Shown here: piece after piece, positions 3,075 through 53,291 of the stretch | Numbering within the stretch: the stretch's first letter is position 1 | Layout of the letters: each line of letters starts with the position of its first letter | Assembly (NCBI GenBank): GCA_017546505.1 | Contig: JAFYWV010000080.1 | Location: forward strand, 1-53,291 | DNA: 53,291 bases | Direction: 5' to 3' | From: Bacteroidaceae bacterium | GTDB taxonomy: Bacteria; Bacteroidota; Bacteroidia; Bacteroidales; Bacteroidaceae | Notes under the pieces: model-generated | What the model saw: the letters and a program-made list of their open reading frames with translations, nothing else | Databases searched by the model: none | What the model was told of the DNA's origin: nothing | Made by a program: the position numbers and the translations under genes

Positions 3075-5483
3075 TTACTTTACCAGCACTTTTTTGCCAC
3101 CTACAATGTAGATACCACGCTCTGTGATAGACTCTACCTTGCGGCCGGTGAGGTCGAAGATAGCCTTAACCTCGTTCTCAACCTCTACATTCTCAATGCC
3201 TGTTGTGCCGTCCTCAAAGCGGAAGCTGTAAGAAGCAGCGTTCACACCATCGGTCATTGGCAAGTATGCCTTGTGGCTGTTGTTGAGGAATGCTGTATTG
3301 CTCTGCTGATTCAAGATTGCACCATAGAAACCAACACCGTTTGCACCATTGCTAAGCACATAAGCATCAGCAGCGATGTATGTTGCAGCTGTTGTACCAA
3401 CGAGTGCGCTTGTTGCAGTAGCATCGGTTGTTGTGATTGCAAGGCTGTGTGAACCTGCACCAACAAGTACAACACCGGTTTCAGCAGGAACAACTGTCAA
3501 AGCCTCGCTCAATGTAGCCCACTCACCGTTGATTGTCACAGTGTGTGCTGTAACACCAGTAGGGAGCTGAACTGCTACAGGAGCAAAGAATGTTGCATAG
3601 CCGGCTGCAGTAACTGTTACAGGGAGCGACTCTACTTCCTTGATTGCCCAATTGTGAGCATCGCCACAAGTGTTTGCCGAACAACGGTTAACAAAAGTAG
3701 AACCATCACCGTTTGCAGAAATGTGCAACCAACGGCCACCTGACTGGATGTTATACATAGCAATAGCCCCGTTAGCAGCTGCAACGAAATTTATTGCAGA
3801 TATATCATTTGAACCCACAGCCTCGAATGTCCAATCGGAACCATTCAAACCAAAGTAGAGACCGGTTGTGTAAGCCAAAAGGTGTTCACCATCGTAGTAG
3901 TAGATTGCAGATGCATCCTTTGCACCGCAAGCGATGCGACCATTAGCATCAACCACACTTGTGATATAGTTATCACCATTGCAGAATGTATAATACTTAC
4001 CAGCAACAGGCATATTCAATTGGAATGTTGCAATAAGAGCATTCAACTCGGCAACCTTTGCCTCAACCTCGGCTGGTGTTGGAGTATTAGTTGCCTGAAT
4101 TGCCTGGCGGAATGTAACGATTGCCTGGAACTTTGCCTCATAATCGGCATCAGTAGCTGTGTACTCACCCACGCCAGCACCAATTGTTATCTGATCGAAC
4201 ATAGTCCGTGCATTTGCAATAGCTGCGTCAAGCGCTGCAACAGCATCGGTATTGTCGGCCTCATACACTGCAACAGCTTCAGCAATAGCATTGAGTGTAG
4301 CAGGAGCGATGTCGGCAACCTCAACCACCTTATGCGCGCTACCGGCATCGTTGAGCGCTCTCAAGCCTCCCTGTGAAGCATTACCTTTCCAGTTTGCAAC
4401 ACCGGGTACTGCAGTGTGATTGAAGTGGTTGATTGCACCATAATTGTCGGTAGAGAAGACAAGTGCATAGTCTGTACCTGTTGTATTTTTAACGACCTGT
4501 ATATCGTTGGTAACATCTGTTACGAATGGGAAACGGCCACCCTCGTCAGCATTTCTACCAACAAACTTGCCTGCACCGATATTGTAGAGATAGAACTTAC
4601 CGGTATTCTCTGACTTGTAAATAGCCCATTGGCAAGCCTCAACATCAGCACCTGTTGCGAATGTACCATAAGAGGCTGTTGATGCAACAACATCTGCATT
4701 GGCACTGTTATATATGAGCCAGCCACGTGTAGTAATCAAGTTATACACCTTGTCGTTGCTCAAATCCTCAACGTCTGTAACAACGACTTCGGCAGGCTCC
4801 TCTTCCTCGGAAGGGAATGTGATTGCAGCAATCTGTTCGGCACTCAAAGCATCCTCGAATACCTTAACACCGGTGATTGTTCCGTTGAAGACCTCACCGT
4901 TGCCACCTGAGTTCTTAGCACCACCAATATAGATTTTCGCATTTTCGTGGTCGGCTTTAACCATTGCAGGAGTTGCAATTTCGTAACCGCTCATAAAACC
5001 GTCAGCGTGTGCATTGTCCCAGCTTCTGCTAAGAGAACCGTTTACATACACCCTAAAAGAATTCTGACCTCTGTTGATTACATAGGCAACAATCATACCG
5101 GTTGTATTGGCAGCAATACCGGCACCACCGGTAAAACGATCACCGCTTCTCCAAGATGCAAGATAACCGCCATCAGCGCCATTCATACCATAACCCACAT
5201 AACGTGAATTTGTACCTTCACTTGAACTGTTTGCAGCCTCGGTAGGGTCAGATGTAGCAAAAAGAGACATACGACCAGAAAGGCGAGCTGGGGTATTAAT
5301 TCTAACAGCAATAGTCAAATCACCTTCCAATGCAAAAACCTTGTCTGCATCTTCTGCTGAGACTTCATAAGGATAAGTTGTACCAATCTGCGCAGCAGTA
5401 AGTTCCAAAATTGGATCTGGTACCTGCGCCATTGCGCCTACAGTGAGGAACAAAGACATCAAAAATAGAGTAAATTTTCTCAT
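3075..5483 (-). CDS. Exported LamG/ricin-like surface protein with C-terminal secretion-type tail (802 aa)
   Basis: A signal peptide (MRKFTLFLMSLFLTVGAMA) gives a mature N-terminal Gln at 20. Residues about 25-225 look like a LamG/concanavalin-like jelly roll (FRVYVNGSLSRSWDN, IYIGGAKNSGG, VKVFEDALSAEQIAAI). Residues 240-390 are a beta-rich ricin-like segment, 395-490 is helical (FIVAR-like), 495-640 is a second ricin-like segment, 645-760 is the beta module (YATFFAPVAVQLPTGVTAHT...VPAETGVVL), and the last 40 residues are a Por/T9SS-like tail ending GIYIVGGKKVLVK. This architecture is common in Bacteroidales surface glycan-binding proteins and glycosidases, but no catalytic domain is present. 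Signal peptide and tail match the 599-aa protein. A promoter with a palindromic spacer lies upstream. Confidence 0.85.
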   Translation of the reverse strand: MRKFTLFLMSLFLTVGAMAQVPDPILELTAAQIGTTYPYEVSAEDADKVFALEGDLTIAVRINTPARLSGRMSLFATSDPTEAANSSSEGTNSRYVGYGMNGADGGYLASWRSGDRFTGGAGIAANTTGMIVAYVINRGQNSFRVYVNGSLSRSWDNAHADGFMSGYEIATPAMVKADHENAKIYIGGAKNSGGNGEVFNGTITGVKVFEDALSAEQIAAITFPSEEEEPAEVVVTDVEDLSNDKVYNLITTRGWLIYNSANADVVASTASYGTFATGADVEACQWAIYKSENTGKFYLYNIGAGKFVGRNADEGGRFPFVTDVTNDIQVVKNTTGTDYALVFSTDNYGAINHFNHTAVPGVANWKGNASQGGLRALNDAGSAHKVVEVADIAPATLNAIAEAVAVYEADNTDAVAALDAAIANARTMFDQITIGAGVGEYTATDADYEAKFQAIVTFRQAIQATNTPTPAEVEAKVAELNALIATFQLNMPVAGKYYTFCNGDNYITSVVDANGRIACGAKDASAIYYYDGEHLLAYTTGLYFGLNGSDWTFEAVGSNDISAINFVAAANGAIAMYNIQSGGRWLHISANGDGSTFVNRCSANTCGDAHNWAIKEVESLPVTVTAAGYATFFAPVAVQLPTGVTAHTVTINGEWATLSEALTVVPAETGVVLVGAGSHSLAITTTDATATSALVGTTAATYIAADAYVLSNGANGVGFYGAILNQQSNTAFLNNSHKAYLPMTDGVNAASYSFRFEDGTTGIENVEVENEVKAIFDLTGRKVESITERGIYIVGGKKVLVK
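3148..3209. repeat. 62-bp block identical to 354-415
   Basis: Second copy of the tail-coding block; identical in all 62 bases to 354-415. Confidence 0.85.
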
Positions 5484-5545
5484 TTGTTATTAATTTAAAT
5501 TATTATGTAATCTCTTATGAATTAAACACTTTGCGTAAACTTTTG

Positions 5546-5929: not shown

Positions 5930-8900
5930 TTAGCGAACAACGCGTTTAACACCATCTACAACATAGATACCGGGAACTGTAATCTCCCCGACCTTGCGGC
6001 CTGTGAGGTCGTAAATCTCTTTGCTCTCTGCTCTTTGCTCTTTCATCTCGTTGATGTCTGTTGTTGCCTCGCCAAAACGGAAACTGTACATTGCTGCAGG
6101 CTGAATTGTGTTCTCTTCCTCAAGCAGATAACACTTATTGGCATTGCAAAGCACGTAACCGCTTTCGTTGTGGTTTGTTGTGCCATTGACACTCACTTTG
6201 TTGCCGTTTTCATCACGATTCTCGTATGTCCAATAGAATGCCACACGACCGCTCTTCTTGGCAAGCATATATATATTGTAGGCATTGCCGCAATGTACAA
6301 TCTTGTTGCAAGATGTGCCTTTGAGAATGTTATTATCAGTATTAAAGTCTGGCGTGTTTGCGGTGTATTTGAACTCGGCAGCACCGGCTGTTTCGCTACT
6401 GAGCACAACAGCTGTGTTTGCAGGGAGAATTCCACCTGTAACCTCGGCTAAAACCAACTGTCCCATCTCATTGATTTCCGTAACTATTGAAGCGGTAATG
6501 CCATCGGGTATCTGTGCATTGTATGCAAGGTAGAGAGTTGAATAGGCATTTGTATCACTGCCGCTTTCGTTGGCGCCAAGAGAGACAGTCTGCTTGATAT
6601 CCTCCTCGACATTCCCAACTTTCTCGACATACCAAGCAGAGGCCGTACCAAGACCACCTGTATATCCTACAAGTTTACTGCCACTCGCCTGCGCGTGCAA
6701 TGGATAACCGCCGGCAACGTTCAAGCGCACAATGCCGTTTTCATTGTCAAGGAAATCGACTGTAACCAGTTTGGCCGCAGCCTCATCGCCAAGAACAACC
6801 TGACCGCCCCAAGGCGCAGCTTTGAGATAGCTTTGTGTGTGGAGGCTCTTCAAGTGATAACCACCCTTGACAGGCACAAACTCCCATACATATTTTGAAA
6901 GTTGCTCGTCAGTTGCAGCCCCGAAATAGGGGTTGTTCACAGCATCCACATAAACGAGGTTGTTCTCGCTATAGCCACCGGTATATGCCGACCTTATCTT
7001 GCACAAGCCACCGTTGTACTCAAGGGCATCGTATGCCCCGGCCAATGTTGTGCAAGCATCGTCATACTCGTCATCGGTAGAGTTCTTTGCCTCGAGCAAC
7101 GCCGCTGCATTGTTATATGCATCGTTATATGGAGTTGCACTCTCCACAGTATAAGTACCGATTACTTCGCCTGAAGCAGCCTCGCTGCCGCAAGCTACAT
7201 ACTGGTTATAAAGTGCATAGTAAGCATCGGACAAAGAGTAGTCGGTCTCATCGAGTACAAACTGGAACTGCGAGCCACCATCGGTAGAAGGGGTTGTATT
7301 ATAGAAGCCCATCTTCTTACTATCACCACCGTGGTTACTGAAGTAGAATGTTGCACCACTACCATTGAGAATTGTAATGTTCGACCATTCACTACCCGCT
7401 ATTGCAACGATATTCCAATTGTTGCTATAGCCATCGGCTGTGCTTTCAACAACTTTAACTTTGCTATCGCCCTCACTGAATGAGTTTGTCGCAAGCACCT
7501 TTCCCTCGCCTGTATATGGCAAAATCAAAACATCCTTTGTAGCATCAGCGCCACTCATAAAGAACCAAGCCTGTGCCTTGTTGCCAACATACTCATCGGC
7601 AACAGCAACCATTGCCGACGCTGCATCATACTGCAAGCGTTTGTTATCGCCACGGTTAATCCAAATTTTGTACAGCACAGGGTTGTTTACATCTGTTGTG
7701 AGCTTAACCGGGATGTTCTTCAATAGCATTGCAGCCTCCAACGCATTCTTTGCAGCCTGCAACTCATAAACAGCGGTATTATATGCCGTTGGGGTAACAC
7801 AGTGTTCTGTCTCTGCTACCATCGCCTTGGCCTCCACGACCTCATTATGCGCAGTAACAAGTGTGTTCAACGGCATATTAGGATTAGCATTAACCTCAAC
7901 AGTCTTACACGCTGTCACAGAGAACTTGCTGAGTACGAAGAACGGATGGTCGTTGTACATTGCGTTGTTATTGGTCTTTGTAACCATAAAGCGGACATAA
8001 CGGTAAGCCTTACCGTTTGTCAAAGCCTCATCTGTTGCATATGTAACTGTTGCGGCTGTTGTTGGCAATTCAGTAAGTGTTGTAATTGCCTCAAAGTTCT
8101 CAAGGTCGTTACTACCTTCAATAACCATTTCTACAGGAGCATTGTTATTATTATTGTCGCGACCTGTGTAGCTGAACTTGAACGACATAAGCGCCTTCTC
8201 CTCGCCCATATCAAGACGCAGATAGTGGTCAAGATTATCATCTGTATTGCCTTTATAAGCTGTGTGCAGATGCGACATATTATCTTTATTTTCACCAACC
8301 AGAGCGGATACACCAAGAGCATCGTCACCACCATTGTCTTTACCTTCGGCATTGCAATAGAGGTAATAAGGTGCATTTGCATCGGTGCACTGCATTGTGA
8401 TTTCCTCCTCGATTGTACTGATTGTTGCAGCTTCAGTTACTAATGGTTCTGTTTCGTCGACAAGTGTCTCAAGATCTTTCTTGTCTGTTACATTTCCATC
8501 CACAATAGCCTGCAAGGCATCTATATGAGCCTTCAGAGCGGTTTTTGCTGCATCATACGCGTCCTGTGTCAAATATACAGCCACAGCATCCTTGGCATCG
8601 CGGTATCCACGCAGCACAGCGGGCAGGCAGTCAAAGATGTCCGATGTTGAGTAGAACTCATTCACAGTTGTAACACTGTTTGCATAAAGGTTGAAGTCGG
8701 ACATATTGAAGCAACCGCCACGATTAGAAGCAACCGCCACGCGTATATAGCGATAATTTCTTGCAAGTTCATAAGGCGCCGCCATTTCCCATTTAGTATT
8801 TTCGGTTGAAGGAAGGCCTTCGATAACAGAGAATAGCTCGGTATAATCCTTTTGGTCGTTGCTACCATAGAACTTCAATCCTGTAGGACGGCTATCAGCC

Positions 8901-11900
8901 GCACCCGATACACGTGTGGTATAATCTATTGCAAGGTCTTCAAGTACAATGTTCGCACCCAGGTCTACCTCAACATAGTGGGAATACGCCTCTGAAGATG
9001 ACTGCCAGTATGTACCTGTAAAGGTTCCAATATTGGCAACACCATCGGTCTCGTCAATGAGAGCGCCATTGCCATTATCGTCATTTGCACGTGGGTATGT
9101 CCATATATAATAAGGACTTGTCTTGCTATCTACCTGCAATGCAACATTTCCAGTCTCTACTGCACCATCAACAGTTGTCAACTCAAGGAGATCTTCCATT
9201 TCTGTTATAAGTGTCTGCAAGCTACTTCTGTCGGCAACATCAACTGTCTTAATCTCCATCAACCTCTCATACTCTGCATTCAATCCTTCATAGGCTGCTG
9301 TTATTTCTTCTACCGTTGCTGCGTAATCTACAGCATAAACACGCTCGGCATTCTGTATTGCGGCCGCCAAAGCATAAAGGTCATCCTGAGTAAAGGCTGT
9401 TCGGTAATACTCTTCAATAACACCATTGTTCTCATCAGCAATTTCCAAGTAGAACTGTACGACATTATCGTGAAGTGCCTGAAGCTCGGCCTTAAGTTCC
9501 GAAGTAACATCAATTGCAGCATAGAGAGCATCGTATGCAGCCTGCTGGTCAGCAATCTGAGCATCGAGCAAAGGTACACTTGTAACAAGCTCATTGGTGC
9601 TGACTGCTTTTGACGAGTTCGTAATATGCACCGTGGTGAGCAACAATTCGTCGGTAACGCAGCTCTTATATGCATTATTCACTGTAACATTCTCTTCGGT
9701 AACAGATGTCAAGCCGAATTCCGACATTGTAAAGAATGGATGTCCGTTTTTATCATCTTCATCGGCTGTAATATCGGTCACCTTGAAGCGCAGATAGCGA
9801 TACTTTGTACCTGCACTTCCCAGAACAGAAGATTCATATACGGTATTCGTATTCAGGACTTCGGGCAGCGGTGTCAGTGTCGCAATCTCAGTAAATGTAT
9901 CTTTTGTACTATTTGACGCATCTATCTCATTTGCACCCTCAACAACCATTGTGAGCGGCATATCCTTTTTGCTTCGTGATGCAGTAGTATAGGTAAAATA
10001 GAACAAATCAATTGGAGTTGTTTCTCCCGCATCTACACGCAAGTAGTGATAGTCACCATCGTCCGAATTGGTATTCCAACGAGTATGCAGATAAGTTCCC
10101 GTTTTTTTGTCTGTCAGATTAGTAACATAGTCTGCTGAATAATCAGCATTTTGCGTTGCTATATACGGTGCATTACAATAGAAATTGCTTGTTGTGAGGG
10201 TGATTGGAGTTTCTACCGCTAAAGTAACAGTTCCCACGCCTTTCATAAGCGTCTCCGTTTCGGCAGCCAATTGGGCAAGCGTTGCCTTGCGGGCATCAAT
10301 TGTTGCCTTGTACTGTCCATACAATGTTTCATAAACACTCTGCAACGCCTGCAGTTTAGCATCAATATCACCGGTTGTCGGCGATATGCTGTTTGCGGTT
10401 CTCTTTCCATTGTGCAGAGCATTCATTGCTGCTGTAACGGCATCTACGCTGACTGTACCGCTATATACATCGTTGACTGTTGCTGTGAAGCCTGTGACTG
10501 GTGTTATATCAAACTCGGCCATATGCCAGTAACCGCGGCTCGCGTGATAATTGAAGCGCAGATATTTATAGGACGACAGCATTACACCACCAAACTCCCA
10601 AGCCGTGCCGGCACTCTGTGGCATACCCGATGCCGAGCCGATATATTTGTAGGTGACATTGTCGTCGCTACCATAGACATCTACACTCTTTGGAAAATCG
10701 GCCTCTGCTCCCGAACGGGTTGTGTGGCTGAATGTGAAGCTTGAGAGATCATTACCCTCGCCTAAATAGACAGCCAGATAGTGAGAACCCGATGGTGGCT
10801 CACTACTCCACTCGGTGTGGAAATAGTTTGCATTAACACCGGTTGTTCCATCGACCAGATAATTGATACTACCCTCGGAATCCTCTGGAGCATTTGACCA
10901 AAGATAGCCTGCACTGTTTTGTGTTGTTGTCTGCAACGAAAGCGGTGTACCTTTGGTATATGTCACAGCACCAACCACCTCATCAAGCAGTTGCTCGGTT
11001 TTATTTATATAAACCTCAAGATCGGCAAGGTCAGCAATCACCGGGTCGGCAGCAACAGCGGTGAGATACCAACGAGAAGCATCGGCACCGGTCTCCCAAC
11101 CAACCACATTGCTCCAAGACGAGTGCAGATTCCTGTAACCGGCTGCAGGTGACAATTTGATTGCCCAGACACCATCAGCCACCTCTTCCAATGTGTAAAG
11201 AGCATCGTTGTCCGCTTTGTCGCTTGTAGCGTTCATTGAAACTGACTGTTGCACCGCCGGGATATATTTGTTGCTCAAAGTACGGATATTATAGACACCG
11301 GCCGTAGATGTCTCTACGAACTTCCATCTTGCATCATCGCTTGTCTGGTCAACACCACCCTCGGAGCGCACAACACCGGAACCATTCACCCACATTGTTT
11401 CGCTTGAATATGCCTTGTTTTTTATAATATAGGTAAGTGATGGATTGAAAGGAATCTTAGCATCCTTGTTCTCCAACACCTTTGCATATTCGGCATAGAG
11501 AAGGTCGTATGCGGCCTCATAGCCCGATGAACCTGCATATACCTCTTTGGCGTATTCAAGAGAACTTTCAAGGCCGGCAACCGCTGCTTTCTTGAAATAG
11601 CCAATCTTTGTATATGTATCATCAACCTTATCAACAATAGACTGTGCCTTTGATATCAACGCACCAAGCACACCCTTTTGCAATGCGGTAAGGTTTACCT
11701 CAGCTTCAACAACATTGCTTTGAGAATCGACAGCCTTAATTGTTGCATTACCCGATACAATAGCTTCCATCGCCTTATCGCTCAATGCAAATGTAGCCTT
11801 ATTGCTGAACGAGATTATCTCGCCCTTTTCGTTGACAATAAGGAAGCCGACGCCACCAGTGCCACCACTCATTGTTATCGTGCCGTTGTCCGACAGTGTT

Positions 11901-14440
11901 GCGGTGTAGGTTGTTTCAACAGGCACATTACCGGCAATAAAATCGGTAACAGAACCTAAATCGGAGTTCGGGGTTGTTTCGTTATATATCTCACGTGCAG
12001 TCTTACCGTCGTGTTGCAGATAAGTCGCATTTTCATCGTCGTCATTGATGAATATTATCGAAAGATTTTCCTTCAAAGGATTGCCTTCGGCATCGCGCAT
12101 CGCCTTAACCTCGGCAATGGCCTCGTCTATCATTGCCTGTGAAACATTGTAGATAGAATTGCTATAGTCACCCACAAAGCGGTCTTCCATCACCGAGAAA
12201 TAGCCGTGCGCACGGAAGAACTCTGTCAAGTCCTCACCCGCAGCCTGGCAAGTTAGTTTGTAGAAGTGAAGTGTTGATACATCACCCGACACATTGTAGC
12301 CCTTTTGCATCTGTTCATTACGCAGAAGCTCGAAAAGACGAGGATAGAACTGTGTGTTATTACCGGCCAAGTGATAGTAGAGCCACAAACGGTAGTATAG
12401 ATGGGTAAGTGCCCAGATGTTATTGGTATATATGTCACTGCCGTTAGTGTTGAAAGCATTCAACACACTCTCCAATGAACCGTCACTGCCATTGTAGCGC
12501 GATGTTGACATACCCTTATACCACAATGAGATATTTGAAAACAGGTTATTTGTAACCTCGGTAAGACCATTCAAAGTGAGAAGTCCCTGATGCTGGTGAC
12601 CAATCTCGTGAGCAGGTCCCCAAGTAGAGCCTGCTGTATTAGGCAGGTCAAAGACAGCTGCACTGAAGCCACCGATAGGATAACCTACGTGGTCGCCGGC
12701 ACCATACGGATTACCGCTGCTTGTTCCCAAGATAATACCGTGGTGATTGAAATATTCGCTGTAATCGATACCCTGGCAGAACTCAAGATATGTTTTATTG
12801 TCAATATTGCTTTTGTTTTCGTAATCATACATTTCAGCAGGAGTACTCTCTTTTGTCCAACGTGGATAGAAGTCGTTCATCCTTTCCATCTGCGAATTGC
12901 TAACAAGACCCATTGTTGCAAGCTGAGAGTAGAAAATGCGGTCCCACGCCTCCATTACAATATTGATTTTTCCGGTTGAAGGGTCGCAGCCCATACCATA
13001 ATCGGCCCAACTTTCAGCATAGCTGTATGGAGTAGAAGGGCAATTGATTCTATCGGGTAACAAAGAGCGCAAACCGGGACCTTCCTGTTCATCCTCCAAT
13101 TGAAGGAGAAGTATTTCACGGTGACCGAGTATGGGCAATATGCTCAAATTGGCACGTGTCTCCATATATTCCCAATCGGCATCGGCATCAACGCTTGCAC
13201 CTGTATATGTCTTCCATAGATTCTCTGCATCTGTTGTTGCGCGGAAGTCACCGCAGGCATTGTAGAAACCGTTGATGGCACCACCCTCGATGTGGATTTT
13301 CAACGGTGCGAACTCAGAGAGTTTACGAGGGAACTTTTCGGTAGGTGTTGCTCCGTTGGGATTGTAGGTATCGACATTGTAGCAGATATAAAGCATTCCG
13401 GTGTTTCCTGTATAGTTTATTACATTCAAGCCCGGTCTCAACTCAACAGCACTCTCTGTTGTAGTTCCATTTATTCGACGGTTTGTATATCCATCGACAA
13501 GGCGCAATGTTGCACCCGTTTTTATTTCACCCTCAACCATTACATAAAGAGTGCCGGCTGCAGGCATATATATACCTGTAGGGTTATCGTTGTTGGCGTG
13601 AGAGTTTATGCCAAGCCACGATGTAATGTCGCCTGCAATACTGTATGGCTCATACATCTGCACACGGAATTTCTTGGCATATTCAGCTTCCCAACCGTCT
13701 TTTGTATTATCGGCATTATCCTCGGCCCAAGCATCACCATACACCTTATCGACCATAGCTTTCAACCCGGTTGGAAGTGCCTGATATTCACTGGTTGCCT
13801 TTGCCGCATCGAGCGAACTAAGTTTAGGAGCAACACAAGCCCCTGCACCATCATTAAACAACGCATTAAGTGCAGTAGAATAAGATGCAACCTCAGCAAC
13901 AGTCGGTGCCATTTCAAGGAGTTCGGTTATCTGCTCTGCTGTATAATCGACCTTGGTTATTGTCCAATGCGAACCACTGTTGCCATCGCCATTAAGCCAC
14001 CCCACCACATTATAGCCGCCATTATCACCATTATTATCATCGTGCATATGACCGTAACCATCGGAATCTTTAGTCTTCAAAGTATTCAGGGTGGAATTTG
14101 AAGTCAACAACTGGAATTTATTAAACGCAGATGAATAATCATCAGTCATTCCCCAGGCTGCGCCATAAGAATAAGCTCCTCTCAGGTACTTACCGCAAGC
14201 AACATTGCGCAATACATAATAATCACCATCCTTGGTCACATACCACTCCTGAGCCTTGTCATTGAGATCCGTAGTTTTGGTATGCACATCGTCAAAACCG
14301 TTAGCCCTCAACGAGCGACCACCCCTGGCACTTTCGAACCTATAAATTTGTCCAACTTCAAGAGAGGACAACTGTGCCCACGATGCCGAACTCAACATCA
14401 GCAGTACAGCAACAAAAAGATGTGTAAAAATTCTTTTCAT
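5930..14440 (-). CDS. Giant exported M60-type (enhancin-like) metallopeptidase with four discoidin-like domains (2836 aa)
   Basis: I place the start at 14440 (MKRIFTHLFVAVLLML...SWA|Q), where a signal peptide begins; the frame is open 11 codons further upstream. Residues about 25-160 are ricin-like. The M60 gluzincin domain covers about 260-780, with the zinc motif HEIGH at 611-615 (H611, E612, H615) and a third ligand candidate E628 in GLTEV. M60 peptidases cleave mucin-type O-glycoproteins. Four F5/8C (CBM32-like) segments follow at about 1175-1310, 1415-1580, 1770-1920 and 2015-2180, each joined by helical FIVAR-like linkers. Further ricin-like segments lie at about 1005-1130, 2250-2400 and 2480-2610, then the shared beta module (2635-2790) and a secretion tail ending GIYVVDGVKRVVR. 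A secreted or surface mucinase-like enzyme is the likely role. Peptide gene 3 follows. Confidence 0.85.
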   Translation of the reverse strand: MKRIFTHLFVAVLLMLSSASWAQLSSLEVGQIYRFESARGGRSLRANGFDDVHTKTTDLNDKAQEWYVTKDGDYYVLRNVACGKYLRGAYSYGAAWGMTDDYSSAFNKFQLLTSNSTLNTLKTKDSDGYGHMHDDNNGDNGGYNVVGWLNGDGNSGSHWTITKVDYTAEQITELLEMAPTVAEVASYSTALNALFNDGAGACVAPKLSSLDAAKATSEYQALPTGLKAMVDKVYGDAWAEDNADNTKDGWEAEYAKKFRVQMYEPYSIAGDITSWLGINSHANNDNPTGIYMPAAGTLYVMVEGEIKTGATLRLVDGYTNRRINGTTTESAVELRPGLNVINYTGNTGMLYICYNVDTYNPNGATPTEKFPRKLSEFAPLKIHIEGGAINGFYNACGDFRATTDAENLWKTYTGASVDADADWEYMETRANLSILPILGHREILLLQLEDEQEGPGLRSLLPDRINCPSTPYSYAESWADYGMGCDPSTGKINIVMEAWDRIFYSQLATMGLVSNSQMERMNDFYPRWTKESTPAEMYDYENKSNIDNKTYLEFCQGIDYSEYFNHHGIILGTSSGNPYGAGDHVGYPIGGFSAAVFDLPNTAGSTWGPAHEIGHQHQGLLTLNGLTEVTNNLFSNISLWYKGMSTSRYNGSDGSLESVLNAFNTNGSDIYTNNIWALTHLYYRLWLYYHLAGNNTQFYPRLFELLRNEQMQKGYNVSGDVSTLHFYKLTCQAAGEDLTEFFRAHGYFSVMEDRFVGDYSNSIYNVSQAMIDEAIAEVKAMRDAEGNPLKENLSIIFINDDDENATYLQHDGKTAREIYNETTPNSDLGSVTDFIAGNVPVETTYTATLSDNGTITMSGGTGGVGFLIVNEKGEIISFSNKATFALSDKAMEAIVSGNATIKAVDSQSNVVEAEVNLTALQKGVLGALISKAQSIVDKVDDTYTKIGYFKKAAVAGLESSLEYAKEVYAGSSGYEAAYDLLYAEYAKVLENKDAKIPFNPSLTYIIKNKAYSSETMWVNGSGVVRSEGGVDQTSDDARWKFVETSTAGVYNIRTLSNKYIPAVQQSVSMNATSDKADNDALYTLEEVADGVWAIKLSPAAGYRNLHSSWSNVVGWETGADASRWYLTAVAADPVIADLADLEVYINKTEQLLDEVVGAVTYTKGTPLSLQTTTQNSAGYLWSNAPEDSEGSINYLVDGTTGVNANYFHTEWSSEPPSGSHYLAVYLGEGNDLSSFTFSHTTRSGAEADFPKSVDVYGSDDNVTYKYIGSASGMPQSAGTAWEFGGVMLSSYKYLRFNYHASRGYWHMAEFDITPVTGFTATVNDVYSGTVSVDAVTAAMNALHNGKRTANSISPTTGDIDAKLQALQSVYETLYGQYKATIDARKATLAQLAAETETLMKGVGTVTLAVETPITLTTSNFYCNAPYIATQNADYSADYVTNLTDKKTGTYLHTRWNTNSDDGDYHYLRVDAGETTPIDLFYFTYTTASRSKKDMPLTMVVEGANEIDASNSTKDTFTEIATLTPLPEVLNTNTVYESSVLGSAGTKYRYLRFKVTDITADEDDKNGHPFFTMSEFGLTSVTEENVTVNNAYKSCVTDELLLTTVHITNSSKAVSTNELVTSVPLLDAQIADQQAAYDALYAAIDVTSELKAELQALHDNVVQFYLEIADENNGVIEEYYRTAFTQDDLYALAAAIQNAERVYAVDYAATVEEITAAYEGLNAEYERLMEIKTVDVADRSSLQTLITEMEDLLELTTVDGAVETGNVALQVDSKTSPYYIWTYPRANDDNGNGALIDETDGVANIGTFTGTYWQSSSEAYSHYVEVDLGANIVLEDLAIDYTTRVSGAADSRPTGLKFYGSNDQKDYTELFSVIEGLPSTENTKWEMAAPYELARNYRYIRVAVASNRGGCFNMSDFNLYANSVTTVNEFYSTSDIFDCLPAVLRGYRDAKDAVAVYLTQDAYDAAKTALKAHIDALQAIVDGNVTDKKDLETLVDETEPLVTEAATISTIEEEITMQCTDANAPYYLYCNAEGKDNGGDDALGVSALVGENKDNMSHLHTAYKGNTDDNLDHYLRLDMGEEKALMSFKFSYTGRDNNNNNAPVEMVIEGSNDLENFEAITTLTELPTTAATVTYATDEALTNGKAYRYVRFMVTKTNNNAMYNDHPFFVLSKFSVTACKTVEVNANPNMPLNTLVTAHNEVVEAKAMVAETEHCVTPTAYNTAVYELQAAKNALEAAMLLKNIPVKLTTDVNNPVLYKIWINRGDNKRLQYDAASAMVAVADEYVGNKAQAWFFMSGADATKDVLILPYTGEGKVLATNSFSEGDSKVKVVESTADGYSNNWNIVAIAGSEWSNITILNGSGATFYFSNHGGDSKKMGFYNTTPSTDGGSQFQFVLDETDYSLSDAYYALYNQYVACGSEAASGEVIGTYTVESATPYNDAYNNAAALLEAKNSTDDEYDDACTTLAGAYDALEYNGGLCKIRSAYTGGYSENNLVYVDAVNNPYFGAATDEQLSKYVWEFVPVKGGYHLKSLHTQSYLKAAPWGGQVVLGDEAAAKLVTVDFLDNENGIVRLNVAGGYPLHAQASGSKLVGYTGGLGTASAWYVEKVGNVEEDIKQTVSLGANESGSDTNAYSTLYLAYNAQIPDGITASIVTEINEMGQLVLAEVTGGILPANTAVVLSSETAGAAEFKYTANTPDFNTDNNILKGTSCNKIVHCGNAYNIYMLAKKSGRVAFYWTYENRDENGNKVSVNGTTNHNESGYVLCNANKCYLLEEENTIQPAAMYSFRFGEATTDINEMKEQRAESKEIYDLTGRKVGEITVPGIYVVDGVKRVVR

Positions 14441-14823
14441 TTTTATATTATGTTTTTCATTTATTCTCAACACATTGCAAACCGGGGCTTTTTAAATAAT
14501 CATTTACACCGCTCTCAACAGCCCCGTAAAAGCAAGTTACGGACAACGCTTTTTTATACATAAAACATTGTTACAAAACAGCGCACAATTGCACAAAATT
14601 ACGTTTTTTCGCATTATTTGACAATCAAAAATCCGCTTTTCTTTACAGCCAAAAACAGATTTTAAACAAACAATTGTTTTTGTAGCACACACCCCCTTTT
14701 AGACTCCACGAAAATACACCGACAAATAACAGCAATAACAAAAAACGTGTTCTGCATCATTTTTACAGAGATTATTAGTAACTTCGCGACAGAAGTCAAA
14801 TGATAAATAAAAAACAGAATACT
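14441..14823. other. Divergent intergenic region between the M60-type peptidase gene and metY
   Basis: 383 bp, very AT-rich, with no gene. On the minus strand a weak -7 box (TAACTTGC, 14539-14532) is followed by a leader with a 7-bp hairpin (CGGGGCT/AGCCCCG, 14483-14526 on the plus strand) before the peptidase start. On the plus strand a -7-like box TAACTTCG (14779-14786) lies 38 bp before metY. I see no SAM riboswitch. Confidence 0.6.
14779..14786 (+). promoter_or_regulatory. Candidate -7 box for metY
   Basis: TAACTTCG differs from TAnnTTTG at one position and lies 38 bp upstream of the metY ATG. A T-run about 15-19 bp upstream stands where the -33 box is expected, but it is not a clean TTTG. 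Confidence 0.35.
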
Positions 14824-46251: not shown

Positions 46252-47520
46252 TTAACCGCCGAAGTTGTCGTACATAATAGATTTCTCCTCAACACCAAGG
46301 TCGGTGAGCATATTCACAACAGCCTTTGACATTGGGCCGGGACCGCACATATAGTACTCGATATCCTCGGGAGCCTCGTGGTTCTTGAGGTATGTCTCAT
46401 AGATAACCTGATGTACAAAGCCTGCGGTGTACTTCACGCCCGCTGCATCGGCTGCAGGGTCGGGACGGTCGAGAGCCAAGTGGAAGGTGAAGTTGGGGAA
46501 CTCCTTCTCAAGCTGCAAGAAATCCTCCAAGTAGAACACCTCGTTGAGCGCACGCGCACCGTAGAAGTAGGTCATCACACGGTCGGTAGTCTTCAAAGTC
46601 TTTGTCATATGCATAATCTGCGCACGCAATGGAGCCATACCGGCACCACCACCAACCCACATCATCTCCTTCTTTGAATCGAAGATTGGGTGGAAGTCGC
46701 CGTAAGGGCCACTCATAATCACCTTGTCGCCCGGCTTCAAAGTGAAGATGTATGAAGATGCTATACCGCAAGGTACATCCATAAAGCCTGAGCGGTCGGC
46801 CTTGAAAGGAGGTGTTGCAATACGCACGGTGAGCATAATGCGGTCACCCTCGGCAGGATAGTTGGCCATTGAGTAAGCACGGATTGTCTCCTCGGTGTTC
46901 TTGCACTTGAGGCCGAGCAAACCGAACTTCTCCCAAGCGGGGAGATACTCGTCACCGATAAGTGACTTGTCGATGTCCTTGTCGTATGTCATATCGTATG
47001 CAGGAATCTTAATCTGCGCGTATGAACCTGGAACGAAGTCCATATGCTCGCCCGGAGGCAATGCAACGATGAACTCTTTGATGAAAGTAGCGACGTTCTT
47101 GTTGGAGATAACCTCGCACTCCCACTCCTTGACACCCATAACTGACTCGGGCACCTTGATTTCCATATCGTTCTTACACTTTACCTGACAGCCCAGACGC
47201 CAGTGAGCCTGCTGTTCCTTGCGTGTGAAATGACTGGTCTCTGATGGCAGAATCTCGCCACCACCCTCTGTTACCTGGAGCTTGCACTGACCACAAGAGC
47301 CCTTACCACCACAAGCCGAGGGAAGGAAGATGCCGTTCTCGGCAAGTGTACCGAGCAATGCACCACCGGCTGCAACCTCAACCTCTTTCTCGCCGTTAAT
47401 CTTTACCTTGATGTTGCCACCGGGAAGCAAAAAGCGTTTTGCCACCAAAAGGACAACTACCAGCAGAAGGATGATTACAAGGAAGACAGCTATACTTGAA
47501 AATATCAATTGTGTATTCAT
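46252..47520 (-). CDS. nqrF: Na+-NQR subunit F (422 aa)
   Basis: The electron entry subunit: oxidises NADH through FAD and a [2Fe-2S] centre. An N-terminal membrane helix lies at about 7-29; the ferredoxin-type cluster site is SACGGKGSCGQC plus a fourth Cys in WRLGCQVKC (about 68-112); the FAD motif is AYSMANYP; NADH-domain motifs are GPYGDFHP and WVGGGAGMAPLRAQI; the C-terminus YMCGPGPM...MYDNFGG is complete. Last gene of nqrABCDEF. Confidence 0.97.
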   Translation of the reverse strand: MNTQLIFSSIAVFLVIILLLVVVLLVAKRFLLPGGNIKVKINGEKEVEVAAGGALLGTLAENGIFLPSACGGKGSCGQCKLQVTEGGGEILPSETSHFTRKEQQAHWRLGCQVKCKNDMEIKVPESVMGVKEWECEVISNKNVATFIKEFIVALPPGEHMDFVPGSYAQIKIPAYDMTYDKDIDKSLIGDEYLPAWEKFGLLGLKCKNTEETIRAYSMANYPAEGDRIMLTVRIATPPFKADRSGFMDVPCGIASSYIFTLKPGDKVIMSGPYGDFHPIFDSKKEMMWVGGGAGMAPLRAQIMHMTKTLKTTDRVMTYFYGARALNEVFYLEDFLQLEKEFPNFTFHLALDRPDPAADAAGVKYTAGFVHQVIYETYLKNHEAPEDIEYYMCGPGPMSKAVVNMLTDLGVEEKSIMYDNFGG

Positions 47521-47532
47521 ATCCTTACTTTA

Positions 47533-48156
47533 TTACATTTTAATACCAGAGAAGCACATAAACGCCATTGCCATAAGACCTACTGTGATGAAGGCGATAC
47601 CCAAACCACGCAAAGGCTTTGGAATGTTGCTGTACTCGATTTTTTCACGTATTGCCGCAAACAGCACAATAGCAATCATCCAACCCAAGCCAGAGCCGAT
47701 TGCAAAAGCAAAAGAGTCGGCCAGGCAAGTGATAGCCTGAGAGTTCTCGGCCGGCAAGCCGATGCGCTGCTGCATAAAGAGCGAACCACCCATAATTGCG
47801 CAGTTAACGGCAATCAATGGAAGGAAGATACCCAACTGGCTATACAAAGCCGGAGCAAAACGCTCGACAATCATCTCCACAAGCTGAACGATACCTGCAA
47901 TGACTGCAATGAACAGTATGAACGCAAGGAATGTGAGGTCTACACCCAAAATACCGTCAGCAGCAAGAACCTTTGTCTGCAACAAGTAGTTCACAGGCAA
48001 TGTAATTACCTGAACGAATATAACGGCAACACCAAGTCCAATGGCAGTCTTTACGCTCTTAGATACAGCCAAGAACGAACACATACCAAGGAAGAAGGCA
48101 AATACCATATTGTCCACGAAAACCGAACGGACAAGTAAACTAATGAAATGTTCCAT
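47533..48156 (-). CDS. nqrE: Na+-NQR subunit E (207 aa)
   Basis: A six-helix integral membrane subunit; with NqrD it forms the channel core and holds an iron centre between conserved cysteines. Seen: [21 protein letters not shown] (in parts) and [13 protein letters not shown], each with the conserved Cys (MCSF, NCAI). Length is standard. Confidence 0.96.
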
Positions 48157-48183: not shown

Positions 48184-48813
48184 TTATTTTTCTTGCAAGC
48201 TCTTGTCCTTTGCTCTCTGATACCAAACGATGCAGGCAATAAGTATGAATGCCGCAGGTGTCATAAGCATAAGACCATTATTCATATAACCGGCCTCATA
48301 GAAGCTCTCGGGGATAATCTGGATGTTAAGAAGCGCTCCTGTACCGAAGAACTCACGGAAAAGAGCAACGATAACAAGAATCATCGCATAGCCTACACCG
48401 TTACCGATACCGTCGAGGAACGAAGGCCAAGGCTTGTTCTGCATAGCAAACGCCTCGAGACGTCCCATAAGGATACAGTTGGTAATGATAAGACCGATAT
48501 ATACCGACAGCTGAACGCTCACATCGTATGCAAAGGCCTTGAGAATTTCACTTACCAATGTTACCAATGTTGCAACAACCACCAACTGAACGATGATACG
48601 TATACGCATTGGAATTGTATTGCGGATAAGTGAGATGATTACGTTAGCCATTGCCACAATGATGGTTACAGAAAGACCCATAACAATTGCCGGCTCGAGC
48701 TTGCTTGTAACAGCCAAAGCTGAACAGATACCAAGCACCTGCACGGTTACGGGGTTTTCCTTGAAAAGAGGAGTGTTGAGTGCCTCTTTATTTTTCTTTG
48801 AAAGTAGTCCCAT
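48184..48813 (-). CDS. nqrD: Na+-NQR subunit D (209 aa)
   Basis: A homolog of NqrE with inverted topology; six helices and the paired cysteines in VLGICSALAVTSK and ITNCILMGRLEAF. Spaced 15 bp after nqrC and 27 bp before nqrE. Confidence 0.96.
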   Translation of the reverse strand: MGLLSKKNKEALNTPLFKENPVTVQVLGICSALAVTSKLEPAIVMGLSVTIIVAMANVIISLIRNTIPMRIRIIVQLVVVATLVTLVSEILKAFAYDVSVQLSVYIGLIITNCILMGRLEAFAMQNKPWPSFLDGIGNGVGYAMILVIVALFREFFGTGALLNIQIIPESFYEAGYMNNGLMLMTPAAFILIACIVWYQRAKDKSLQEK

Positions 48814-48828: not shown

Positions 48829-49665
48829 TTAATTTTGTTGATTCTTCAAGTAATTGTAATAGGGAGCGAGCTTGCTCTCAAGCATCACCTGCAAACCGTT
48901 ACAAGTGATTGTAGCACCCGAAACGGCATCAATGTGATAATTCTCACCGGCAACACCCTTGCCCTTCTCGACAGCAAGTGCAACCTTGCCGTTCTCGTCA
49001 AAAACCTTCTTTACAATAGCATTGCCATCCTTGTCCTTTGTAAAACGGTTCTGGAACTTGTCGCTCGCAATCTCGGCACCAAGACCCGGTGTCTCACTTG
49101 CGTGTGAGAAGTAGACGCCATAGATGGTATTGCAGTCGTCGTTGAGAGCAATGTAACCCCAGATACCACCCCACAAACCGTTACCGGTCATTGGAATGAT
49201 GTATTTTGTAGCCCCGTTGACCTTAGCCACATAAAGAGGCAGGTTGTTCTCATTCACAGCATCGTTGCTCACCTTAAAACCACCCTCCTGGGCTACTTCA
49301 TTACCTTGGGCATTTACAATGATGTCCTTTTCGATAAGTTCATCATATTTTGCAGCCGCATCGGGAAGGTTTCTCTCATTCAAAGAGGCAAGTATCTGCT
49401 TTTTCTTGTCAAGTTCAACGTTGGCATCCTGCATTGGCTTCAACAATGATGAAACACCGGCCAAAAGGAATGCAACGATAACTACTACCACAGCCGAATA
49501 GATGATGGCATAGAGATCGCTATTGGTGTCAAGACCCTTTTTACCGGGCTCTTTCACCGCGTCGAACTCTGAAGCACCGGCCTTACACAATGGACACACC
49601 GAAGGTGCCTCATTGCCTTCGTGTACGTAACCGCACACCTTGCAAACATATTTTTTTGCTGCCAT
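48829..49665 (-). CDS. nqrC: Na+-NQR subunit C with N-terminal rubredoxin-like domain (278 aa)
   Basis: Residues about 45-278 are ordinary NqrC: one membrane helix (48-72), LKPMQDANVELDKKKQILASL, the periplasmic FMN domain GNGLWGGIWGYIAL and SHASETPGLGAEI, and the covalent FMN site SGAT in DAVSGATITCNG. Residues 1-40 are additional: Cys8, Cys11, Cys24 and Cys27 in CKVCGYVHEG...SVCPLCKAG form a CxxC-X12-CxxC iron site like the short rubredoxin domain of rubrerythrins. A linker follows, and the normal NqrC start (DTNSDLYAIIYS) lies inside the frame without a Met, so the fusion is real in this reading. The rubredoxin domain would face the cytoplasm. It is 5 bp after nqrB. Confidence 0.95.
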   Translation of the reverse strand: MAAKKYVCKVCGYVHEGNEAPSVCPLCKAGASEFDAVKEPGKKGLDTNSDLYAIIYSAVVVVIVAFLLAGVSSLLKPMQDANVELDKKKQILASLNERNLPDAAAKYDELIEKDIIVNAQGNEVAQEGGFKVSNDAVNENNLPLYVAKVNGATKYIIPMTGNGLWGGIWGYIALNDDCNTIYGVYFSHASETPGLGAEIASDKFQNRFTKDKDGNAIVKKVFDENGKVALAVEKGKGVAGENYHIDAVSGATITCNGLQVMLESKLAPYYNYLKNQQN

Positions 49666-49670: not shown

Positions 49671-50849
49671 TTAGTTCTTTTTAGTTACACGTTTAGCACG
49701 GGCATTCACATTCGACTGCACCACGCAATAATCGATAAAAGGAGCAACCACGTTCATCAACAGGATTGCAAGCATCATACCCTCGGGATAACCGGGGTTG
49801 AGCACGCGGATGATGATTGTCATAGCACCGATACCAAAACCGTAGATATATTTACCGGTCTCGGTACGGGCCGATGTTACAGGGTCGGTTGCCATAAACA
49901 CTGCACCAAAGCAGAAACCGCCAAGGAGAAGGTTGTGCCAGAGTGGCATAGCCTCGGGCATCTTGTCCCGGAACACGTAAAGCATTGCAATACCACCTAC
50001 AAAGACACTGAGCATTGTCTTCCAGCTTGCAACACCTGTGTAAAGGAGAAGTGCAGCACCAAGTGCAATGGCCACGACGCTTGTCTCACCTATTGAACCC
50101 GGCATAAAACCGAATATCATATCGCAGGATGTCAACAACTCACCGGCAGCACCGACAGGAGCTGCGCCGTTTGCAACATACTGGAGTGCTGTAGCACAGG
50201 TATAACCGTCGACATTAGAGCCAAGGCCACAGATTGCCTCAGTTGCCACCCATACGCTGTCACCCGAGATAACCGAAGGATAAGCGAAGAAGATGAACGC
50301 ACGTGCAATGAGTGCCACATTCACAATGTTCATACCAGTTCCGCCGAACACCTCTTTTGCAAAAATAACGGCAAAAGCTGTTGCGAGGGCAAGCACCCAC
50401 AATGGGCAACCAACCGGAACAATCATTGGAATGAGGATACCTGATACAAGGAAACCCTCGTGTATCTCCTCATTCTTCCACTGTGCAACGGTAAACTCAA
50501 TACCAAGACCCACTGCGTATGCAACCACAATCTTGGGCAAAGTAAGCATCAGACCATAGAGGAACATACTGAACCAGCTTGTCTCGGCCAATGTACCGGC
50601 TGCAATAGCGTTCTGCAAACCGATGTTGTACATACCCAAGAGAAGTGATGGAACAAGTGCAATCACCACCAACGACATAATGCGCTTGCTGTCGATGGCA
50701 TCGTGGATGTTCACACCGTTCTTTGCTGTGTCGTTGGGCACGAACAGGAATGTCTCGAAACCATCGAATAGGGAACGGAAAGCGTGCAGCTTGCCACCCT
50801 CTTCGAAGTTCGGCTTAATTTTATCTATATAATTTCTCAAAAATTTCAT
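49671..50849 (-). CDS. nqrB: Na+-NQR subunit B (392 aa)
   Basis: A polytopic membrane subunit (about ten helices) that carries covalent FMN and riboflavin and pumps Na+. Seen: MLTLPKIVVAYAVGLGIEF, VGCPLWVLALATAFAVIFAKEVFGGTG (in parts), LGGFCFGAVFMATDPVTSARTE (in parts). The FMN attachment segment reads DGYTCATAL where the usual form is Dxx[ST]GA[TS]; the acceptor Thr is kept but the Gly is Cys. It begins 41 bp after nqrA. Confidence 0.96.
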   Translation of the reverse strand: MKFLRNYIDKIKPNFEEGGKLHAFRSLFDGFETFLFVPNDTAKNGVNIHDAIDSKRIMSLVVIALVPSLLLGMYNIGLQNAIAAGTLAETSWFSMFLYGLMLTLPKIVVAYAVGLGIEFTVAQWKNEEIHEGFLVSGILIPMIVPVGCPLWVLALATAFAVIFAKEVFGGTGMNIVNVALIARAFIFFAYPSVISGDSVWVATEAICGLGSNVDGYTCATALQYVANGAAPVGAAGELLTSCDMIFGFMPGSIGETSVVAIALGAALLLYTGVASWKTMLSVFVGGIAMLYVFRDKMPEAMPLWHNLLLGGFCFGAVFMATDPVTSARTETGKYIYGFGIGAMTIIIRVLNPGYPEGMMLAILLMNVVAPFIDYCVVQSNVNARAKRVTKKN

Positions 50850-50890: not shown

Positions 50891-52240
50891 TTAGCACATC
50901 TCTGCACGTAATTTATCCAAACCTTCACGAACGATGCGTTGCAATTCAAGTTTAGAAGAGTCGACGAACTCACAAAGAGCAAAATCCTCGGGAGCAACCT
51001 CGTAGATACCAAGCTGCTCCATCTTGTCGATGTTGCCGGTTATGATTGCCTTCAACAGGTACTCGGGGTAGATATCCATCGGGAACACCTTGTCATACTC
51101 GTTAGACATAATCATATGGCGCTCGCCACCCTTGATGCGGGCATCGATAGTGTACTTGCGCTTGGGTGACAACCAACTGAAATAGCTGCGGCTTGTGCTG
51201 TACATTCCAAAGCGTGGAGCTGCCCAACCAAGCATATCGGCGTCGTTCATAATCTCGGGGATTACAGTAACCTCTGTCGAGAATGCGCCAAGGAAGCCAT
51301 CGGCTGTTGTCTTTTTGCCAGTGAGAACGTTGCCGTCGATAATGCGGTTCGGGTACTTGTTCTCGAGACGGCCGGCAACGATATTGCTGAGTTGTGCACC
51401 AAGAACCACCTTGCTGTATGACGGGTTCTTCACCTCGCTACCTGCAAGCGCAATGGTACGTGTAAAATCGACCTTGCCCTTGTTGAAGAAACGACCGATG
51501 AATATTACCTCTTCGGCACCGATGGTCCACACAATCTCGCCCTTGTTCACAGGAGCTGTCTTGTTAATCTGTACACCGACATTGCCGGCAGGGTGTGGTC
51601 CTTTGAAGATGGTGGTTGTCACATTCTTGGCCACTGTCAAAGCTGCGGCCTGCTGACAAGCGCAGATACCAAGGTGAACAGGAGCAATGCGTGACAACGC
51701 ATCAAGACCGGCCTGGAAATCCTCTTCGTTACCCTTGAGAGCTACCTCAAAGTTAACGGCAAGGGGTTTAGAATCGAATGCCGAAACATAGATGGCACGT
51801 GGCGCATCTTTCGGGTCGGCAATAACATCGTAAGGTCTCTGACGGATAAAACCGAACAGACCGGCCTTCAGAAGGTTTGCCTTGATTTCATCGGCCGAGA
51901 GCGAAAGCACATCCTGTGCCTTGTACTCCACCGACTCGAACTTACCATCCGATTCAACTACTACGCTAAGTACGCGTCTTCTCTCTCCGCGGTTAACCGC
52001 AACAACTTTTCCGCTCACCGGCGAAACAAATTGCAATTCAGGGTTAGACTTATCAACGAACAAAGCGTCACCTGCCTTCACTGCATCCTCGGGCTTAACA
52101 ACAACCTTTGGAGTCACACGTGTAAAATCGGCCGGCATCAAAGCGTAGAGCTTTGGTGTCTCAACCGATGTAAATTCTTTTGCAGGAGCGCCTTTCAAAT
52201 TGATATTCAACCCCTTAGAAATTTTTACGACTCTGTGCAT
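50891..52240 (-). CDS. nqrA: Na+-NQR subunit A (449 aa)
   Basis: A peripheral cytoplasmic subunit. Seen: VVKISKGLNINLKGAP at the N-terminus (NqrA hallmark GLxxPLxGxP-like), IRQRPYDVIADP, KGPHPAGNVGVQI, and CEFVDSSKLELQRIVREGL at the C-terminus. First gene of the operon, with a good promoter upstream. Confidence 0.96.
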   Translation of the reverse strand: MHRVVKISKGLNINLKGAPAKEFTSVETPKLYALMPADFTRVTPKVVVKPEDAVKAGDALFVDKSNPELQFVSPVSGKVVAVNRGERRRVLSVVVESDGKFESVEYKAQDVLSLSADEIKANLLKAGLFGFIRQRPYDVIADPKDAPRAIYVSAFDSKPLAVNFEVALKGNEEDFQAGLDALSRIAPVHLGICACQQAAALTVAKNVTTTIFKGPHPAGNVGVQINKTAPVNKGEIVWTIGAEEVIFIGRFFNKGKVDFTRTIALAGSEVKNPSYSKVVLGAQLSNIVAGRLENKYPNRIIDGNVLTGKKTTADGFLGAFSTEVTVIPEIMNDADMLGWAAPRFGMYSTSRSYFSWLSPKRKYTIDARIKGGERHMIMSNEYDKVFPMDIYPEYLLKAIITGNIDKMEQLGIYEVAPEDFALCEFVDSSKLELQRIVREGLDKLRAEMC

Positions 52241-52565: not shown

Positions 52566-53291
52566 TTACTCTGAAACGGGGCGAACGGATTGACCGCAGT
52601 AGCGGTGGTAGTAGAAGTTCCAGCCGTAGTAGCCGCTGATGAAGCTCAAGTAGTAAGCGCTGCAGCTGCTGTTACTGTAAAACGACGACGACCAGTACTC
52701 ACCGCCGCTACCCCTGCCGCCGACTCCTGTCCCGCCGCAATAGCCCGCAGCGGGGAGGAAGATGCTGTTGCCGTTGGGGCCGGTAACCTTGTAACCGTTT
52801 ACTCCGTTTTGGGTTGTCCAAGTCCAGGTGCAGTTATTACAGAGTTCCTCTTGTTCTTCGAATGTGGGCATTCGCCAGTTACCTCCCCATTTTACGTGGG
52901 CGACATCGTCCTCGGGGTCAAGTACGGTTTTATTGTCAACTGTTCCATAACTGCTATTTGCACAATACTTGGTCATTGTATACCAACTGCCGCTACACCA
53001 TTTGTAGGTGCTCCAAGCATAATCATCTTTTTCTTCGGTCTCGCCCCAGGCATAATAGCCACCGTACTCCTCGGGCCTAGTGGCACCGACATTGAATGTT
53101 GCCCACTTAACCGAGAGGCCAAGGTCGACGGCTTCGTAAACACCATTTGTCTCCTTTTCAAAATCTGCAACCAATGTAATATCTTCAAACGCTGTGAACA
53201 CATAAGTTGCATCATCGCTCACACACTCATCAGTGCCCTCAACAAACCAACCTGTGAAATCATAGCCCCTGTCGGGAGTGGCCACAACTAC
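52566..53291 (-). CDS. FISUMP-type (Fibrobacter major paralogous domain) surface protein, C-terminal part, truncated by the window
   Basis: At least 239 residues are seen; the start lies beyond 53291. A bacterial repeat (YDFTGWFVEG, about 8-38) comes first, then the FISUMP/DUF1566-like domain: EAVDLGLSVKWATFNVGA, GGYYAWGETEEKDDY, WGGNWRMPTFEEQEEL, GYKVTGPNGNSIFLPAAGY, EYWSSSFY and the end GQSVRPVSE. These domains have a C-type-lectin-like fold and occur on exported proteins of Bacteroidales in many paralogs. From the final EYW onward the codons are strongly NNC (24 of 33), and all nine Tyr are TAC against mostly TAT upstream, a pattern discussed as a finding. Ligand unknown. Confidence 0.85.
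   Translation of the reverse strand, partial: VVVATPDRGYDFTGWFVEGTDECVSDDATYVFTAFEDITLVADFEKETNGVYEAVDLGLSVKWATFNVGATRPEEYGGYYAWGETEEKDDYAWSTYKWCSGSWYTMTKYCANSSYGTVDNKTVLDPEDDVAHVKWGGNWRMPTFEEQEELCNNCTWTWTTQNGVNGYKVTGPNGNSIFLPAAGYCGGTGVGGRGSGGEYWSSSFYSNSSCSAYYLSFISGYYGWNFYYHRYCGQSVRPVSE

Follow-up and report, generated by a model that had tools for sequence, protein, structure and literature searches.

In Vibrio cholerae, the Na+-pumping NADH:quinone reductase (Na+-NQR) is described in the cofactor list of PMC10739449 with six cofactors and no one-iron centre, which agrees with the statement of an earlier note on this DNA that the standard enzyme has none. The structural account in PMC10643135 gives the V. 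cholerae NqrC subunit one membrane helix and a periplasmic FMN domain, has the ferredoxin domain of NqrF reach NqrD–E from the cytoplasm, and reports that the NqrC helix tilts by 12 degrees and shifts by about 4 Å during the cycle. The NqrC proteins of V. cholerae, of unfused Bacteroides, and of Prevotella bryantii (given as 210 aa in PMC6560451) share with the protein described here an nqrABCDEF operon, an N-terminal helix, an FMN_bind domain, and an SGATxT motif; to these the present protein adds an N-terminal rubredoxin of about 35 residues and a linker. RnfG of the Rnf complex is an FMN subunit homologous to NqrC (PMC12174285), but the fused NqrC scores 45.4 bits with the RnfG model TIGR01947, under its cut-off of 102. 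Reverse rubrerythrins begin with a rubredoxin of the same Pfam family, followed by a diiron domain that is missing from the fused NqrC. In addition, the [FeFe] hydrogenase–rubrerythrin chimera of Clostridium perfringens (PMC11926857) and the flavodiiron–rubredoxin-reductase fusion of Trichomonas vaginalis (PMC9364112) join a rubredoxin centre to a redox enzyme and reduce peroxide or O2; neither is part of an ion pump.

Within the open-licence PMC literature, we found no report of a rubredoxin–NqrC fusion, in line with the earlier note, which knew of no described case; the text seen of PMC5924567 holds both NqrC and rubredoxin, as separate proteins. Within that literature, the fused NqrC is thus a hitherto undescribed variant of a known enzyme, and the architecture may be recorded elsewhere, for example as a database domain architecture.

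The nqr operon and the N-terminal domain of its NqrC

The window, that is, the whole 53,291-nt stretch of DNA analyzed, holds a complete nqrABCDEF operon, in order on the minus strand from 52240 to 46252, and each of its six products passes the TIGRFAM model of its own subunit (Table 1). The nqrC ORF starts with ATG, 5 nt past the nqrB stop; its 278-aa product begins MAAKKYVCKVCGYVHEGNEAPSVCPLCKAG... and is read without a stop up to the NqrC membrane helix. Residues 6–34 match RUBY_RBDX (PF21349; E = 8.1e-14, 51.2 bits, cut-off 26.5), and the CxxC-X12-CxxC pattern that the earlier note had read at the N terminus was borne out as C8-x2-C11-x12-C24-x2-C27, the PF21349 match making the domain rubrerythrin-type. 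The ferritin-like diiron domain PF02915, by which a rubrerythrin would be recognized, was absent among the Pfam matches of the protein. FMN_bind scores 62.4 bits (cut-off 22), and the NCBIfam model for NqrC, TIGR01938, scores 191.7 bits (cut-off 144); because the latter match begins at residue 48, the rubredoxin domain is an addition ahead of an ordinary NqrC. Narrower NqrC submodels remain under their cut-offs, for example NF003750 at 262.8 against 352.

Table 1. Features of the nqr operon and of its fused NqrC (window coordinates)
Feature	Position	Strand	Evidence
nqrA	50891..52240	-	TIGR01936 above cut-off
nqrB	49671..50849	-	TIGR01937 above cut-off
nqrC with N-terminal rubredoxin domain, 278 aa	48829..49665	-	RUBY_RBDX and FMN_bind; TIGR01938 above cut-off
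nqrD	48184..48813	-	TIGR01939 above cut-off
nqrE	47533..48156	-	TIGR01940 above cut-off
nqrF, NADH/FAD/2Fe-2S subunit, presumed rubredoxin reductant	46252..47520	-	TIGR01941 above cut-off
Rubredoxin domain, residues 6–34, C8/C11/C24/C27	49564..49650	-	PF21349, 8.1e-14; Cys invariant in alignments A1 and A2
NqrC linker, residues 35–51, length differs among relatives	49513..49563	-	Gaps in alignments
NqrC single membrane helix, residues 53–71	49453..49509	-	Hydropathy window
FMN_bind domain with SGATIT, residues 163–264	48874..49179	-	Pfam; Thr254 presumed FMN-bearing

Sequence searches of the PDB divide the protein in the same way: the best matches of residues 1–44 are a 173-aa chain named rubredoxin and rubrerythrins, and the remainder matches NqrC chains, 3lwx best. 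The sequence of 3lwx, which presumably derives from Parabacteroides distasonis, is 89% and 85% identical to two NqrC loci that are themselves fused (L140 and L139, respectively). In alignment A1 (17 rows), G250, T252, and T254 of the FMN_bind domain are invariant. We take SGATxT to be the FMN-bearing motif; on this assumption and by analogy with Thr225 of V. cholerae NqrC (PMC10739449), Thr254 is the presumed bearer of FMN. Elsewhere in the window, a 2847-aa ORF (5930–14473, minus strand) with matches to peptidase M60, F5/8 type C, and ricin-B-like lectin domains may encode a surface enzyme that acts on mucin or glycans, and an edge fragment (52566–53291, minus strand) with an InlB B-repeat-like domain resembles a surface protein.

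Distribution, selection, and descent of the fusion

A search of NqrC proteins for a rubredoxin domain, which the earlier note had proposed, found the fusion recurring across the genus and the family and scattered through the order. Judged by where the matches start, it is present in 73 different genomes, our own included (33 in the genus sample and 48 in the family sample, 8 being in both). The 44 genomes of the genus sample comprise 33 fused and 5 unfused, with NqrC not detected in 6; the 151 of the family sample comprise 48 fused (7 having CGQ or CGK instead of CGY), 85 unfused, 2 with fragments, and 16 in which NqrC was not detected. N termini were also read directly in 15 unfused family genomes, in four of the five unfused genus genomes, and in several fused variants of the family sample. 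With a profile of residues 1–100, 6 of the 295 genomes of the order sample score as fused, and the gap is wide (3.6e-40 for the worst fused match against 2.4e-23 for the best other match). Beyond Bacteroidales the scope is that of the phylum sample, in which none of the 342 genomes outside the family is fused and our own genome is the sole fused one among 345. Among the matches listed, 16 of 39 named NqrC loci (80 loci kept) are fused, and these 16 belong to six Bacteroidales families: Bacteroidaceae, Prevotellaceae, Paludibacteraceae, Tannerellaceae (including P. distasonis An897), Rikenellaceae, and Dysgonomonadaceae. The named Bacteroides loci among these matches mostly have unfused NqrC.

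Among 30 genus sequences, dN/dS was lowest in the helix (0.059), followed by the rubredoxin (0.105), the linker (0.124), and the FMN domain (0.155), as calculated over the 112 of 435 pairs that lie under a chosen divergence limit. The rubredoxin domain is under purifying selection. Its four cysteines are invariant in alignments A1 and A2 (17 and 19 rows, picked among CGY copies), and in the 19 chosen diverse copies of A2 the CGY is invariant as well; a few rows of both alignments start one to three codons ahead of their Met. An assembly artefact or an isolated frame fusion is ruled out, because many genomes share the fusion and selection acts on the domain; with no stop between the two parts, the fusion that the earlier note reported is genuine.

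A locus that has lost the domain bears both on the start of translation and on descent. L065 is unfused and nested among fused relatives; it has nearly the same leader and keeps the MATKK codons, after which its sequence resumes where the linker ends. This reads clearly as a loss of the rubredoxin module by clean deletion. The earlier note had also stated that the usual NqrC start lacks its own Met; no Met does occur from domain to helix, but an in-frame GTG is present at codon 37. Translation from that GTG, past the domain, or a domain that is only a relic, would leave no fusion product. We consider this barely credible, given the purifying selection (dN/dS 0.105), the start of the ORF so close behind nqrB, and the retention in L065 of the leader and the first five codons; moreover, 32 of the 75 fused ORFs (near-copies counted, L079 and L080 mis-measured) have no ATG, GTG, or TTG from domain to helix.

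On a tree built from the NqrC core, with the rubredoxin left out (63 fused, 45 unfused; a quick method applied to 108 of 122 ORFs, 14 near-copies being omitted), the trait takes 17 changes, at least 7 of which are forced by starred branches. Several unfused NqrC start with a MAK-LNTN-like sequence, and these starts may be further remnants of the domain. Mean BLOSUM scores are 135 among NqrC rubredoxins, 124 to those of reverse rubrerythrins, 116 to N-terminal and 77 to C-terminal rubredoxins of rubrerythrin (Rbr), so that, of the three rubrerythrin classes compared, reverse rubrerythrins hold the nearest rubredoxins outside NqrC. Of 19 diverse NqrC rubredoxins (from 27 chosen names, one being a duplicate and the other seven lost to the motif filter or the removal of identical rows), 17 find their best match in another NqrC rubredoxin and 2 in a reverse rubrerythrin, from pools of 19 and 52, respectively. 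When all copies are used, the five best matches are mainly NqrC rubredoxins for 61 of 66, a count that near-copies help. Repeated recruitment from each genome's own reverse rubrerythrin is disfavoured by the 17 of 19 best matches that fall within the NqrC rubredoxins.

Distances between rubredoxins correlate with distances between cores over 48 loci (Mantel r = 0.42, a value reached by 0 of 2000 permutations), but over 21 diverse loci the correlation is weak (r = 0.14, 219 of 2000 permutations), and a vertical history of the fusion is therefore not established. The sequences fit best with a single origin followed by either many losses or exchange, two courses between which so short a rubredoxin domain does not discriminate.

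Possible roles of the tethered rubredoxin

The domain would bind one Fe and be tethered to the NqrC helix on the cytoplasmic side. By analogy with the published structures (PMC10643135), the N terminus of NqrC should face the cytoplasm near the docking site of the NqrF ferredoxin domain; the cytoplasmic location proposed in the earlier note thus draws its support from homology with V. cholerae Na+-NQR. The nearness of the NqrC rubredoxins to those of rubrerythrins, together with known chemistry, points to rubrerythrins as acceptors. Rubredoxin has a potential near 0 mV, and the NqrF cluster is a low-potential centre. Since electrons would flow downhill from the latter to the former, one would expect the domain to serve as an exit. 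The reading that we tentatively prefer, at somewhat less than an even chance, is that electrons can leave Na+-NQR by a second route, the tethered cytoplasmic rubredoxin: they would reach it from the mobile [2Fe-2S] domain of NqrF and pass on to rubrerythrins, which remove peroxide, and perhaps also to Roo, a flavodiiron enzyme that removes oxygen. In that case the pump would also work as a membrane-anchored NADH:rubredoxin reductase, able to divert NADH electrons from menaquinone to the removal of peroxide or oxygen. A stronger form of this proposal, in which Na+-NQR is branched and the rubredoxin takes electrons from NqrF and passes those of NADH directly to both rubrerythrins and Roo, is possible but doubtful.

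The earlier note had also allowed that the rubredoxin might receive electrons from another donor. A cytoplasmic donor would in that case reduce the rubredoxin, which would feed NqrD–E or menaquinone. The geometry serves entry as well as exit, and free rubredoxins occur in 23 of the 27 chosen genomes; nevertheless, a rubredoxin near 0 mV looks too high in potential to feed low-potential centres usefully, and NqrF already supplies entry, so that we regard this direction as very unlikely. The attachment of the rubredoxin to a helix that moves in the catalytic cycle, as reported in PMC10643135, would also suit a redox sensor or gate, in which the oxidation state of the rubredoxin alters the movement of the NqrC and NqrF helices and makes the pump slower or faster under oxidative stress. 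The length of the linker differs among relatives, which weakens the case for mechanical coupling, and such gating appears quite unlikely.

Variants of the domain bear on whether it carries electrons at all. CGQ or CGK replaces CGY in 7 of the 48 fused family genomes (genera g11 and g21), and g11 also holds a typical CGY copy (L179). The N-terminal pieces of three variants (L180, L182, and L240) exceed the cut-off of PF21349 with 39–41 bits, and zinc-ribbon models stay below theirs; zinc binding by these variants is possible. That the variants are lost domains is ruled out, as the first 36 residues of L180 alone reach 39.1 bits; a search with the whole L180 protein returned no PF21349 match, its Cys-rich tail having probably tripped a filter. 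Long Cys-rich C-terminal tails, presumed periplasmic, extend past the FMN domain in L180 (3213–4382, genome G148) and L179 (2368–3411, genome G134), and other related NqrC have shorter ones. One 382-aa NqrC, L171, has three tandem rubredoxins. All three lie before the membrane helix, and the first two are nearly identical (L171:2679–3827, genome G133).

A metal-bound module, with Fe or Zn, might instead steady the NqrC helix, aid assembly, or hold a partner at the membrane without transferring electrons. The patchy presence of the domain and its loss in L065 suit a dispensable part, and the existence of CGQ and CGK variants, which zinc-ribbon models match under cut-off, is consistent with such a module. 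Conversely, the typical copies keep the CGY and HEG motifs and are nearest to the rubredoxins of reverse rubrerythrins, PF21349 scores best even for the variants, and triple copies suit a carrier better than a brace. On balance, a structural or docking role is unlikely, and a second electron exit remains the reading we prefer.

Candidate peroxide- and oxygen-reducing partners in the same genomes

Our own genome is 86% complete, so further PF21349 genes may exist beyond the three found: the fused nqrC, a reverse rubrerythrin, and a 192-aa rubrerythrin. The rubredoxin of the reverse rubrerythrin is 51% identical to residues 1–39 of NqrC; the gene, which is cut by a contig end, directly follows a FUR-family gene (L177:8189–8976, contig C2). 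The genome also holds two free PF00301 rubredoxins and a single flavodiiron-type gene, whose product has a metallo-beta-lactamase domain and matches flavodoxin slightly below the cut-off. In 27 hand-chosen genomes surveyed for PF21349, PF00301, and PF19583, the flavodiiron-type PF19583 is matched in all 27 and a free PF00301 rubredoxin in 23, so the fused rubredoxin is seldom the sole candidate donor. No free PF00301 rubredoxin was detected in three fused genomes, G289 and G471 (group f105) and G066. One genome, G388, has neither the fusion nor a detected free rubredoxin, yet it has both a PF21349 gene of the Rbr type and a PF19583 gene; the fusion is therefore not required for genes of either type, and dependence of Rbr or Roo on it as a general rule is ruled out.

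Rubrerythrins with an extra N-terminal rubredoxin show a pattern complementary to that of fused NqrC. Among the matches listed by score, they occur in all 5 unfused and none of the 33 fused genomes of the genus sample (Fisher 2e-6) and in 11 of 85 unfused and none of 48 fused genomes of the family sample (Fisher 0.007); these tests ignore kinship and the pattern covers about five lineages, so it is suggestive only. An extended Rbr is also present in a genus genome in which NqrC was not found (G014). Among the matches listed for the order sample, 1 of 295 genomes has an uninterrupted extended Rbr (G401, not scored as fused), and seven further Rbr matches begin that early but across stops. In five loci of genus g15 (L189–L193), a flavin reductase (PF01613), a rubredoxin, a rubrerythrin, and a second rubredoxin form a single chain of 390–415 aa. 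Like L194 and L165–L170, which are rubredoxin–rubrerythrin–rubredoxin proteins, these loci place a rubredoxin ahead of a rubrerythrin, as the fused NqrC places one ahead of a pump subunit, but in chains that hold no pump subunit.

One fused nqr locus lies beside a rubrerythrin gene. In L079, from a Dysgonomonadaceae metagenome-assembled genome (MAG), rbr and nqrA share a strand, with rbr upstream at a distance of 237 nt; among the matches listed, in which some loci are short, this is the only one of 39 named loci with rbr close to nqr, and no rbr was seen near the nqr operon in our window. In the L079 operon, nqrC and nqrD are also separated by a gene for a PBP-superfamily protein (6842–8071), and nqrE and nqrF by one for a nitroreductase (9355–9888); in L080, from another Dysgonomonadaceae MAG, a DNA methylase (PF01555) separates nqrC from nqrD (4533–5498); nqrD, nqrE, and nqrF of both loci were named by eye.

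The suggestion of the earlier note that the pump could exchange electrons with peroxide- or oxygen-reducing partners is the best reading, supported indirectly by the rubredoxin kinship, the Rbr pattern, the PF19583 matches, and L079, and weakened by the free rubredoxins in 23 of 27 genomes and by G388.

If an electron exit is indeed what evolved, the conserved rubredoxin would be a seventh redox centre of Na+-NQR and a branch point before quinone, and, in the stronger form of the proposal, a respiratory pump would itself donate to peroxide and oxygen defence. In Bacteroides, the NADH:rubredoxin oxidoreductase is described in PMC5210497 as “not the sole” source of rubredoxin electrons, and a preprint on B. 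thetaiotaomicron puts rubredoxin ahead of a Roo-like enzyme and suggests that there is competition with rubrerythrins (PMC13252398). The fused NqrC is a concrete candidate for a further source of this kind, the link to Bacteroides physiology running through relatives of B. thetaiotaomicron because the named Bacteroides loci listed are mostly unfused. If this is true, gut anaerobes would draw rubredoxin-level electrons from the pump besides those from the NADH:rubredoxin oxidoreductase.
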